Source: Alphaproteobacteria bacterium
GTDB lineage: Bacteria > Pseudomonadota > Alphaproteobacteria > Rs-D84
DNA: 64,000 bases
Direction of reading: 5' to 3'
NCBI GenBank assembly: GCA_017505705.1
Contig: JAFVOS010000011.1
Span: 109,449-173,448 of the forward strand
Each line of letters starts with the position of its first letter. Positions within the stretch are counted from its first letter, which is position 1. The notes under the pieces are model-generated. The model saw only the letters and a list, made by a program, of their open reading frames with translations. It was not told the DNA's origin and made no database searches. Made by a program: the position numbers and the translations under genes. This document shows, piece by piece, positions 28,166 through 32,208 of this stretch.

Positions 28166-28729
28166 TTAAAAACTGTACGTTATTCCCATTCCATAAAACG
28201 CATAAGAATTATTTTCATCTGCGGTATTACCGTTCGAGAAATGCTGCATAAACAATTCTACTGCTGTACATTCAGTCAACCGATACCCCGCCCCAAGTTT
28301 AAACCCAAACACCAGCTTTGATCCAATACGTTCATTTTGTTGCGCCTGCATACCGACCCCCAGACCGGCAAACGTGTACCAATCGCAACCATACCAAAAA
28401 CTAATATCTTCGCTTAACACTGCCATTGGTATTGTATATTTATCCCAATGCCATCCATATTTTGATCCATGACCCAACGTTTGAACAATATTTAAAGATT
28501 GCCTTGCAGGCATCCTAAAGAATGTTGTTGGCTGTGAATATTGCACATGCATCATATTAAAAGGCACAAATTGCGTTGGTGGCGGCAACAAGAACCCACT
28601 GTTCACCCCGAAACCGAAATTAAAAGCGACCTGATTTTCATATCCATCAAAGAACGGATTAAACCCATTGGCCGCCAGATTCCCTGTTGCCAACATGAAC
28701 ACAGACAAAGCACATATGATTTTTTTCAT
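28166..28729 (-). CDS. PagL-like lipid A 3-O-deacylase / acyloxyacyl hydrolase family outer-membrane protein
   Basis: About 187 residues from ATG 28729 (MKKIICALSVFMLATGNLAA, signal peptide); other starts at 28738 and 28747 exist, none with a strong ribosome binding site. The C-terminal half has the PagL pattern: GAGYRLTECTAVELFMQHFSNGN, where His and Ser of H-x-S-N are the catalytic pair in PagL, with a nearby acidic residue, and ends in the barrel motif MGITYSF. It would remove an acyl chain from lipid A in the outer membrane. The N-terminal half is more divergent, so confidence is moderate. Confidence 0.65.
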   Translation of the reverse strand: MKKIICALSVFMLATGNLAANGFNPFFDGYENQVAFNFGFGVNSGFLLPPPTQFVPFNMMHVQYSQPTTFFRMPARQSLNIVQTLGHGSKYGWHWDKYTIPMAVLSEDISFWYGCDWYTFAGLGVGMQAQQNERIGSKLVFGFKLGAGYRLTECTAVELFMQHFSNGNTADENNSYAFYGMGITYSF

Positions 28730-28865
28730 ACCGCGCATAATAACCAAATTAAAAAATTAATTCAAGACAATTTATTAAAATTTTTAATATTTTAAAACAA
28801 GAATGAATTCTTATAATTTTTGTTGCTTGCAATCCTAAAAAAGTCTGTTATAATGCTGTTCGCTT

Positions 28866-29690: not shown

Positions 29691-31046
29691 TTAAAAGTCT
29701 GAAAAGAATTCCTCTACTTTACTTTGGCAAATGTCATCAAAAACAACACTATATGTTATATCGCCAATCGCACAGGTTACGGTATCGTCTTTTCCAATAC
29801 TGCTAATTCCACTTTTACAATCACCACTACATTTAATCTTAGAAGAATCAACAAAATTATAACAAAATCCAATAAGTCTGTCTTTTGCTTTTTCATATGC
29901 TTCTGTCGGTGTTTCTGTGTAAAGGTGTGTCAAATCGTCTGTCTTACCATTAAATCCTTTAATTTGGTTGATACACCTAACTGCTTTATCTAACTGTTGT
30001 TTGTTGTATTCCAAGTTACTGGTGTTTTTATCTTTATATTCGAGTAGCTTATCTGTAAGGGCAGCTATCTCCTCTAGTTCTTCATATCTTTCCCAGGAAG
30101 TTTCTGTAAGATTAGTTGTTTCCCATTTTTTTACTGCATTTTCTGCATTAGCTACTATTTGGGTAAGGCTGTCTATCCTATCTCTCTGCAGGTATTTCTC
30201 TACATCATTAGGTGAGATATGGGGAACGGTGTTCAATATACTTTTTATTTTTGAAATTCTAGTTTGTACAGAATCTAAGACATCGATGTAATTATCTACT
30301 ATATTGTAGAATTCCCATGATTCACCAGCCCCCGTACCGCAATCACTATGGTGCCATATTTCAAAGCTTCCTTGCAAAGCATATTTACCTATAGCACACA
30401 ATTGATTCGTCCAGCCCGCACAACCCTCACCTTCTATGTATAATAAAGCAACCGGTTTATTATTTTGCGCTTCATAAACAACGACGGCGCCATAAGCATA
30501 ATCAGGTTCTTCAAATGTGCATATATGAGAATATTTTGATGTTATTGTTGGACCTGTTTCTTTGTCATATTGGGTATGATCAATTACTGCATAAAACTGT
30601 TTGTCAGATGAAAATACTTTAGTTGTACCATCTTTCTGTACAAAAACTAATCCGTTATCGCTTAATGATATTGCACCTGTTTTGGTATATTCATTATTCA
30701 CACTAACCAATGTATCGGCAAAGCCACTGCACAATTCTGGGCATTTTTTGCCCGATGCGCCACGACCATTTTTCAGAAAGTCCGACATATTACATTTGTC
30801 CAAACACACACGTGTCGCATCACGAACGGAAAAAGATTCCATTTTTAATAATTCCGCCAATATGCGTTCATGGGTCACGCGCACATCCCAGTGTGCATCA
30901 GATGACCCCAGGAATCCAGATTTATTTAATGCCCGTTCCACAACATTTGAATTCCATTTTATTGACGTATCAAAGTCAATTGTTTTCGCAATTGCGATAC
31001 CGGACGTTAAAAATATTGCACCTGCAAATAATAAACTTTTCTTCAT
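29691..31046 (-). CDS. Exported protein of unknown function with Cys-rich ends and a helical centre
   Basis: 451 residues with signal peptide (KSLLFAGAIFLTSGIAIA). Residues about 75-110 hold several Cys (VCLDKCNMSDF, KKCPELCSGF). The middle resembles a globular beta domain (VFSSDKQFYAVIDHTQYDKE), residues about 240-380 look helical or coiled, and the C-terminus has CSGDCKSG and further Cys. No family recognised. It starts 1 base after the stop of the 309-residue gene upstream (TAAAATG), so both are expressed from the structured leader at 32.0-32.2 kb. Confidence 0.7.
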   Translation of the reverse strand: MKKSLLFAGAIFLTSGIAIAKTIDFDTSIKWNSNVVERALNKSGFLGSSDAHWDVRVTHERILAELLKMESFSVRDATRVCLDKCNMSDFLKNGRGASGKKCPELCSGFADTLVSVNNEYTKTGAISLSDNGLVFVQKDGTTKVFSSDKQFYAVIDHTQYDKETGPTITSKYSHICTFEEPDYAYGAVVVYEAQNNKPVALLYIEGEGCAGWTNQLCAIGKYALQGSFEIWHHSDCGTGAGESWEFYNIVDNYIDVLDSVQTRISKIKSILNTVPHISPNDVEKYLQRDRIDSLTQIVANAENAVKKWETTNLTETSWERYEELEEIAALTDKLLEYKDKNTSNLEYNKQQLDKAVRCINQIKGFNGKTDDLTHLYTETPTEAYEKAKDRLIGFCYNFVDSSKIKCSGDCKSGISSIGKDDTVTCAIGDITYSVVFDDICQSKVEEFFSDF

Positions 31047-31047
31047 T

Positions 31048-31977
31048 TTATTTCAGCGCCCCCTCGCATTCATCGGCAACGGTTGCCGCACGTTTAATTG
31101 CACTTATTTGTGTTGCGTTAAATATTGTTGCGGACAAACTTGCCGCCGTTGTGCCACCCGCCAGTACATTTGCCGCGGTATTCAGGTTCTGTTCTTTTTG
31201 TTTATCATCACCATTGCGAACACCATCTGAATTTGCAGATGCAGATGTTATTGTGCCGGCCAGACCCAACCCCGCACCAATACCCGATGACACGGTTGCG
31301 CCCTTGGAACGATTGTTGATTGGCGTAATATCAACCGTGGACCATGCGTCGCATGCACGAATTATATTTTCCACACGTGCCAAATCGGTGTCATTTGCAC
31401 TGCCGTCTATGCGTGCCTGCATGCGGACATTTGATAATGTTTTAACCGATGTCAAGCATTCGTCAATTTGTTGTTTCAAATCGCCCTTTACCCGATTTGT
31501 GCCAGACATAACCGCACCTGCGATATTTGTTGCTGTGGCCGCCGCCATTGTTCCCGTACGAACATTGCCCAGTTGTTTTGATTTCTTTTCTGCGGCGGAT
31601 AATTCTTGCGCTTTTGTCTGATAAGACTCAATAAACTCAGCCACCTGGTGTTCGAACAAGGCTTCATCTTCTATTTGCAAATGTTCAACCGGCACATCAC
31701 CGCGTTCCGCCTTTAAACGTGCGATTTGGGCTTCTAATTCTTCTATTTCTTTATCGACATTTGCCTTGGCCAAACCGGTTCCAAGTGCTATACCACCGGC
31801 GACTGTGCCACCCCCCGTTACCGCAGTGGTAATACCCGCCATTTTTTTCATGTCTGATAATTCTGCACTGATGTTTCCGCATGTGGTACGGACATTTTCA
31901 ATCGCCGCGGTCAGGTCGGTGTTTGCATGTGCCGCCCCCACCATCAGCGATATTAAAATCCCAAATGTTAATCGCAT
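31048..31977 (-). CDS. Exported Ala/Gly-rich helical protein with GxxxA membrane-like segments
   Basis: 309 residues with signal peptide (FGILISLMVGAAHA). Three Gly/Ala-rich hydrophobic stretches (TTAVTGGGTVAGGIALGTGLA, ATATNIAGAVMSG and VSSGIGAGLGLAGTITSA) alternate with charged coiled-coil parts (DKEIEELEAQIARLKAERGD). Such composition is seen in surface or pore-forming proteins, but no family is recognised. It is the first gene after the two-segment antisense-type RNA leader, whose terminator ends about 25 bases before the ATG. AAGGGAATAC is the ribosome binding site. Confidence 0.7.
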   Translation of the reverse strand: MRLTFGILISLMVGAAHANTDLTAAIENVRTTCGNISAELSDMKKMAGITTAVTGGGTVAGGIALGTGLAKANVDKEIEELEAQIARLKAERGDVPVEHLQIEDEALFEHQVAEFIESYQTKAQELSAAEKKSKQLGNVRTGTMAAATATNIAGAVMSGTNRVKGDLKQQIDECLTSVKTLSNVRMQARIDGSANDTDLARVENIIRACDAWSTVDITPINNRSKGATVSSGIGAGLGLAGTITSASANSDGVRNGDDKQKEQNLNTAANVLAGGTTAASLSATIFNATQISAIKRAATVADECEGALK

Positions 31978-32002
31978 ATTTGTATTCCCTTGTGTTAAAA
32001 AT

Positions 32003-32181
32003 AACCGTCACATAAGCGGACGGTTGGAGGTTCATAACTATCATTTTCGGAAAATAGCGTGCTTATTCAATATATTCGCAACCCTCCAACCAAAATAAAG
32101 TTGGAGGTATTTTTTGTCCCCACAGACACCGAAAATAACGAGGTTATGACGCCCCAACACAGTCGCCTGTGTCATGGGGAT
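32003..32181 (-). ncRNA. Phage-immunity-type antisense RNA/attenuator leader (P4 CI / P1 C4-like), chromosomal copy
   Basis: On the minus strand, a segment TCATAAC + ATTTTCGG (32149-32143, 32136-32129) and a segment GGTTGGAGG (32091-32083) are complementary to one contiguous downstream target: CCGAAAAT + GTTATGA (32050-32043, 32038-32032) followed by CCTCCAACC (32030-32022). The target runs into a terminator stem AACCGTC/GACGGTT (32025-32003) with ATTTTT. A second copy of the target, CCTCCAAC at 32107-32100, lies upstream of the antisense segment, giving the A-B-C order of phage P4 immunity. A promoter TTAAAC, 17 bases, TATAAT ends at 32180. The target block matches the copy at 51.1 kb (GAAC, pyrimidine run, ACCGTC). 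Confidence 0.62.
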
Positions 32182-32208
32182 TATACCATATTTATATAAT
32201 TTGTTTAA
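32180..32208 (-). promoter_or_regulatory. Promoter of the 32.0-32.2 kb RNA leader
   Basis: TTAAAC (32208-32203), 17-base spacer, TATAAT (32185-32180) on the minus strand. Confidence 0.65.

Follow-up and report, generated by a model that had tools for sequence, protein, structure and literature searches.

The window, as we call the whole 64,000-nt stretch of DNA analysed, contains a promoter followed by a structured leader with an intrinsic terminator (32185-31997, minus strand) ahead of the gene for a 309-residue secreted protein. Two mutually exclusive folds of this leader are conserved among its relatives, both with strong covariation. The leader is probably a self-addressed RNA attenuator, kin of the sRNA-Xcc1 (RF02221) RNAs that precede prophage antirepressor genes.

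Organization of the leader

All elements lie on the minus strand and are given in the order of transcription. The leader promoter has the -10 box TATAAT (32180-32185) and is followed by a predicted 5' hairpin, H1 (GACACAG gcga CTGTGTT; 32156-32173), whose counterpart in other copies is a variable 5' hairpin. Hairpin H2 (32140-32155), supported by covariation, has the arms GGGG and CCTC around CGTCATAA and presents in its loop antisense segment A (TCATAAC; 32143-32149). A second antisense segment, B (ATTTTCGG; 32129-32136), is hypervariable, and next to it is a covarying hairpin, H3 (TGTCT gtgg GGACA; 32115-32128), which is optional and is missing in short-form copies. Segment C (CTCCAAC; 32100-32106) is an upstream competitor that forms helix P4 with the 5' strand of the antiterminator, or AT (GGTTGGAGG; 32083-32091).

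The 3' half of the leader holds the targets. Hairpin H5 (TGC GAATATATTGAATAA GCA; 32060-32080) covaries in its stem and has a conserved loop, a putative binding site. The covarying hairpin H6 (CTAT ... ATAG; 32038-32057) presents in its loop B' (CCGAAAAT; 32043-32050), the target of B, and is followed by A' (GTTATGA; 32032-32038), the target of A. The last bases of the AT 3' strand (CCTCCAACC; 32022-32030) double as the 5' arm of the terminator (AACCGTC...GACGGTT, then ATTTTT; 31997-32025).

The initial annotation had described two antisense segments (its A and B'), one contiguous target and a terminator stem, and all of them were found where it had placed them on this strand. The extra upstream copy of the target that it had reported corresponds to CTCCAAC (32106-32100), which competes for GGTTGGAGG (32091-32083). 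The TATAAT box, the covarying H2 and H6 and the conserved H5 go beyond that description.

These elements can be arranged in two ways. In the OFF fold, A pairs with A', B with B' and C with the AT 5' strand (P4), and H3 and the terminator are formed. In the ON fold, H2 holds A in its loop, and AT (GGTTGGAGG/CCTCCAACC) encloses H5 and H6, the latter with B' in its loop. GGTTGGAGG thus has two alternative partners, one upstream (in P4) and one downstream (in AT). The window leader folds far better than its shuffles, with an energy of -68.9 kcal/mol compared with -48.0 kcal/mol for 200 dinucleotide shuffles (z -5.15). The folding energy of the full leader was -64.3 for OFF vs -46.8 for forced ON, and the 3' half folded in isolation adopted the ON structure. 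An Rfam search of the window leader gave no true match, including none to a riboswitch or T-box model; matches to URE2_IRES and mir-2320 were dismissed as chance.

Covariation supports two mutually exclusive folds

We examined covariation in two alignments, of 117 and 67 distinct copies. The OFF pairs, to whose P2/P3/P4 model the OFF alignment was fitted, were formed in 96.9% (117 copies) and 96.4% (67 copies) of cells. Double changes occurred at 29/30 and 30/30 of these pairs (810 and 578 double-change cells); none of 500 shuffles reached this level, and versions of the pairing slid out of register were 30-45% paired. The ON fold, whose elements H2, AT and H6 lie outside the model used for alignment, was paired in 96.2% and 91.8% of cells, with 185 and 214 double-change cells. 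The persistence of the pairing in related genomes, on which the initial annotation had staked its proposal, is borne out by compensatory changes, with 96-97% of pairs kept in the 117 and 67 copies.

Individual helices behaved alike. Double changes were found in all seven pairs of A/A' (99.5% and 98.3% of cells paired) and in all eight pairs of B/B' (97% and 96%). The inner stem of H2 was paired in 94% and 90% of cells, H3 covaried in both alignments, and the H5 stem covaried at 99.7% and 96% paired, with the loop GAATATATTGAATAA nearly invariant. The H6 stem changes from CTAT/ATAG to CAAT/ATTG. In the closest orthologue, whose protein is 89% identical, TCGAAAC/GTTTCGA replaces the TCATAAC/GTTATGA of the window.

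The most telling sign of two exclusive folds is covariation of three strands, linking 32106-32100, 32091-32083 and 32030-32022 (for example CTCCTGAC/GTCAGGAG/CCTCCTGAC). Whole subclasses swap CTCCAAC/GTTGGAG/CTCCAAC for CTCCTGAC/GTCAGGAG/CTCCTGAC.

The signals at either end of the element are conserved as well. A TAnnnT box (at least 5/6) is present upstream in 83% of 181 distinct copies (control, 25%), with a sharp peak in position 31-32 nt ahead of the element. A terminator-like site was found in 166/179 copies, compared with 56/179 at random positions, and in 154/179 the 5' arm of the terminator begins within the AT 3' strand.

Distribution of the family and the genes downstream

Searches of related genomes with blastn found copies in nearly all genomes of the same genus. 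A covariance model built from 29 copies (R1, whose E-values are rough) placed the element in 55/59 genomes of that genus (Candidatus Enterousia, order Rs-D84) and in 127/142 genomes and 15/20 genera of the order. Copy counts per genome are lower bounds: two genomes of ~1 Mb have at least 54 and at least 50 copies, and the genome of the window has at least three strong ones. The named matches are metagenome-assembled genomes (MAGs) of Candidatus Enterousia and its relatives, and isolate names that point to gut or rumen are common among them. Rs-D84 has been described as an order of bacteria with reduced genomes that probably live as symbionts or parasites (PMC12306168). Diverged copies are present in other Alphaproteobacteria.

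An amplified family with at least 54 copies in a genome takes the place of the satellite relic that the initial annotation had offered as one possibility, and its many copies rule out a lone chromosomal oddity. No match to the window leader was found by blastn among plasmid and phage records. The Rs-D84 form is also present on three IMG/VR contigs (L233, L234, L235), but these were dropped as proof of phage carriage; the gene on L234 looks chromosomal and is common to MAG loci, and L235 has a homologue of the 309-residue protein gene.

The collection includes a G+C-richer subtype (TGCGAG...CTCGC, with H3 GCCTGCACAGGC; L254, L282, L285, L296, L297, L302 and L307), often the upstream member of a tandem pair, which may be a separate class. 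Some RF02221 matches in Rs-D84 (G020:C7:80229, G063:C2:17408 and others) fall outside the listed R1 matches; copy numbers are therefore perhaps underestimated, and further subtypes are possible.

In the window, the leader precedes a putative operon on the minus strand. Its first gene (31048-31977) encodes the 309-residue protein and its second (29691-31046) a 451-residue protein; both proteins have an N-terminal signal-like segment and belong to no Pfam family. Downstream of the operon region is a gene for a PagL-like lipid A 3-O-deacylase (28166-28747, minus strand; PF09411, E 3e-10).

An open reading frame starts 20-100 nt downstream of 83% of copies (control, 29%). The 121 downstream proteins form 42 unrelated clusters, the largest being small HTH-type proteins, and 59/121 have a signal-like N-terminus. 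The leader occurs at just 3/20 loci of homologues of the 309-residue protein, a loose association that does not tie it to that protein family; in G032, an orthologous leader stands at the same gene as in the window. A metabolite riboswitch was rejected, as the downstream genes share no pathway. At two loci (L200, L078) the gene behind the leader encodes a UvrD/Rep-type helicase, unexpected beside the majority of secreted-protein and HTH genes.

Copy-specific segments and tandem copies

Between copies that are 80-90% identical elsewhere, identity was 0.37-0.38 in B and 0.70-0.73 in A, so that B appears to behave like a private address. Near-identical copies in one subclass of G063 change B and B' together and reuse A, and copies with a shared B have a different A. 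For 38/56 copies in G063, the copy's own target ranked best of 56. Tandem pairs in G063 had common codes in 6/12 cases, and non-tandem pairs in 112/1528 (p 1e-4).

Tandem copies each have their own promoter and usually their own terminator, and some lack a gene. At L263, A and B of the tandem copies are identical and the remainder has diverged to 0.69. At L166, the gene-proximal copy is without A and B, and B of the upstream copy matches the proximal target perfectly, scoring -18.5 on it vs -14.7 on its own target, with which it has a mismatch. Together with the codes shared by tandem copies, L166 points to pairing between RNAs, short of proof. At a further locus, L136, two truncated copies without the A/B half lie ahead of a small gene; in that genome, matching antisense segments were found in 0/4 copies.

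A simple rule by which the upstream copy regulates the downstream copy was dropped, because about half of the tandem pairs have different codes and the codes in arrays are mixed. One array has five near-identical units with five different code combinations. Near-identical units with different A/B combinations were seen in arrays L327 (five units), L328 (three units) and L329, where each unit has a promoter and terminator; A' of the second unit of L329 fits the A of another unit, as if recombined.

Tandem arrays with mosaic units, a high and variable copy number and many unrelated neighbouring genes would also suit a DNA-level element, such as a mobile repeat or a site of recombination, in which the hairpins would have their role in the DNA itself. 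We regard this as scarcely credible: most copies are flanked by promoter and terminator signals in a consistent orientation, the position before start codons is conserved, and G032 has an orthologous leader at the corresponding gene. Exclusive alternative pairings and a conserved loop, moreover, are easiest to understand if the strand is transcribed.

Relationship to sRNA-Xcc1

The window RNA is best read as an antirepressor-control RNA of prophages, of the sRNA-Xcc1 kind, that has been domesticated and amplified into self-addressed attenuators. A search of the window leader with RF02221 gave no match at E ≤ 10, and the second copy in the same genome scored 33.6 bits, where the gathering score is 53 bits; being below the cut-off, the window leader is therefore filed as a remote relative and not as a formal member. 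RF02221 matches occurred in 74/114 Rs-D84 genomes, above the cut-off in three. A diverged copy ahead of a KilA-N gene (L351) scored 66.2 bits, above the cut-off, and in the reverse search R1 recovered L351 and L360.

The consensus structure of RF02221 is the ON fold, that is, the 3' half only. Its closing helix around an AATA-loop hairpin and a second hairpin is present in the window leader, as judged by the ON covariation and the fold of the 3' half. The shared features are thus the closing helix (AT), H5 with its AATA.../...GAATA loop, H6, and the position before genes. The Rs-D84 RNAs differ in that the antisense half is joined to the leader without a terminator of its own, and in reaching at least 54 copies.

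The window leader carries upstream A and B segments complementary to the H6 loop and its 3' flank, a feature that we propose for RF02221 too. At bona fide RF02221 loci in other Pseudomonadota, H2, A and B are likewise found upstream in most cases. At 13/30 of these loci the locus's own upstream segment paired best of all 30 (p 4e-12), and most of the remaining 17 were visibly paired. Upstream of the core, 23/30 loci have a terminator-like site (random windows, 14%). An internal terminator-like site between the halves was present in 13/188 Rs-D84 copies, and the halves are therefore taken to be fused there. At RF02221 loci (L352-L381, L382-L501), a conserved hairpin, CCGCACCCGACAG...GCGGTTTTT, often lies between the halves.

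RF02221 matched above the cut-off in 36/397 sampled Pseudomonadota genomes. Viral contigs with a core of this type number at least 120, and 48 phage records contain similar sequences. All ten sampled proteins behind the viral cores were of antirepressor type (AntA, KilA-N, Bro-N, P22_AR_N or pRha). In phage Aaphi23 an RF02221-like sequence lies ahead of ant, and in Smp131 one overlaps a gene annotated as anti-repressor. On the opposing side, the upstream region of a viral core outdid all 30 random others in just 36/100 cases. The initial annotation had suggested that an immunity system was co-opted as a switch for surface proteins. An origin of such a switch in prophage control gains independent support because the nearest family, sRNA-Xcc1, precedes prophage antirepressor genes.

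sRNA-Xcc1 is known as an 88-nt RNA on Northern blots in Xanthomonas (PMC2996969). In integron cassettes it precedes symE, its mechanism being given as unknown (PMC12444791), and a five-copy cluster in Xylella was treated as sRNAs with predicted targets (PMC12189769). The literature searched, to which the main 2011 paper does not belong, holds no description of an antisense half. On such a view the window RNA would be an independent trans-acting sRNA gene and the gene downstream incidental. The 88-nt species and the tandem copies with a promoter and terminator and no gene agree with this. We nevertheless consider it very improbable: an open reading frame follows within 20-100 nt far more often than in the control (83% and 29%), and the overlap of AT strand and terminator arm in 154/179 copies would be needless in a stand-alone RNA.

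Proposed mechanism and alternatives

From the conserved signals and pairings we infer that the RNA is made, that the pairing causes termination and that the RNA can act in trans. In the self-addressed attenuator that we favour, the 3' half, with AT around H5 and H6, would be the default antiterminator, holding the 5' arm of the terminator so that the downstream genes are read. The 5' half would supply A (in the H2 loop), B and C to pair with A', B' (in the H6 loop) and the AT 5' strand. Such pairing, within one transcript or from the terminated RNA of another copy, would open AT and free the terminator, so that transcription would yield no more than a short RNA, about 180 nt long. The terminated RNA, which carries A, B and C, could then repress the next round of transcription, giving a self-reinforcing state. 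Because A and B differ between copies, each locus would mainly address itself or its tandem neighbour, and copy-specific codes would give many independent switches per genome. A factor that binds H5/AT perhaps tips the switch.

The strong fold in cis could, on the other hand, make pairing in trans unnecessary. The leader would then be a purely cis-acting, riboswitch-like attenuator in which a metabolite or protein stabilises ON through H5/AT, and A/A' and B/B' are nothing but the helices of OFF. The near-invariant H5 loop, the OFF fold of the whole leader in cis and the rarity of internal terminators in Rs-D84 (13/188) are in line with this. However, 42 unrelated downstream clusters would be unusual for a metabolite sensor, and B diversifies far faster than the remainder and yet is common to half of the tandem pairs. 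The target copy at L166 is without A and B of its own, and in the RF02221 relatives the antisense half usually has a terminator-like site of its own behind it. A cis-only attenuator therefore seems unlikely to us.

On a broader proposal that extends the self-addressed attenuator, our judgement is evenly balanced. Prophage antirepressors would be controlled by an antisense attenuation system in two parts that has so far escaped notice, with sRNA-Xcc1 as its target half. In the Rs-D84 symbionts the two halves would have been fused and amplified, so that each genome holds tens of self-reinforcing on/off switches, every one with a private address; these would vary secreted proteins and small HTH regulators while the DNA stays the same. 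If true, this would supply a mechanism for RF02221, a widespread orphan RNA family whose members figure in the literature searched as sRNAs that act in trans and have numerous predicted targets, and would predict switches of prophage induction. A lineage with genomes of ~1 Mb would have built, from a phage-control RNA, a large repertoire of addressed switches that serve surface proteins, and orthogonal transcription attenuators could naturally be drawn from the fast-changing, self-complementary B.

Comparison with C4 and P4 CI RNAs

The C4 RNA of P1/P7 (RF01695; c4-2, RF02944) sets antisense segments against a contiguous target and controls an antirepressor. With it the window RNA has in common two short antisense segments facing one contiguous target, and the sRNA-Xcc1 relatives also stand ahead of antirepressor genes; the window differs in having genes without a Pfam family and no phage antirepressor gene at that place. 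RF01695 gave no match at the window leader (E ≤ 10), none above the cut-off in 30 relatives, and none at E ≤ 5 when the antisense halves from 20 RF02221 loci were searched. The lack of an RF01695 match at the element rules out membership in C4. The phage-immunity-type logic of the initial annotation thus stands for the antisense segments, the target and the competing terminator, and falls for C4 itself.

The P4 CI RNA arises by processing of a leader, and its pairing with seqA and seqC brings about transcription termination (PMC4825925). The layout of the window leader would be compatible with termination through antisense pairing. Unlike P4 CI, the window RNA matched no CI sequence family, is chromosomal and multi-copy, and lies ahead of secreted-protein and HTH genes. 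By analogy, C4 and P4 CI appear alike in logic to the window RNA. At one sRNA-Xcc1 locus (L362:2890-2958, minus strand), we observed a c4-2 match of 34.8 bits, below the cut-off, and two antirepressor-control RNAs may coexist there.
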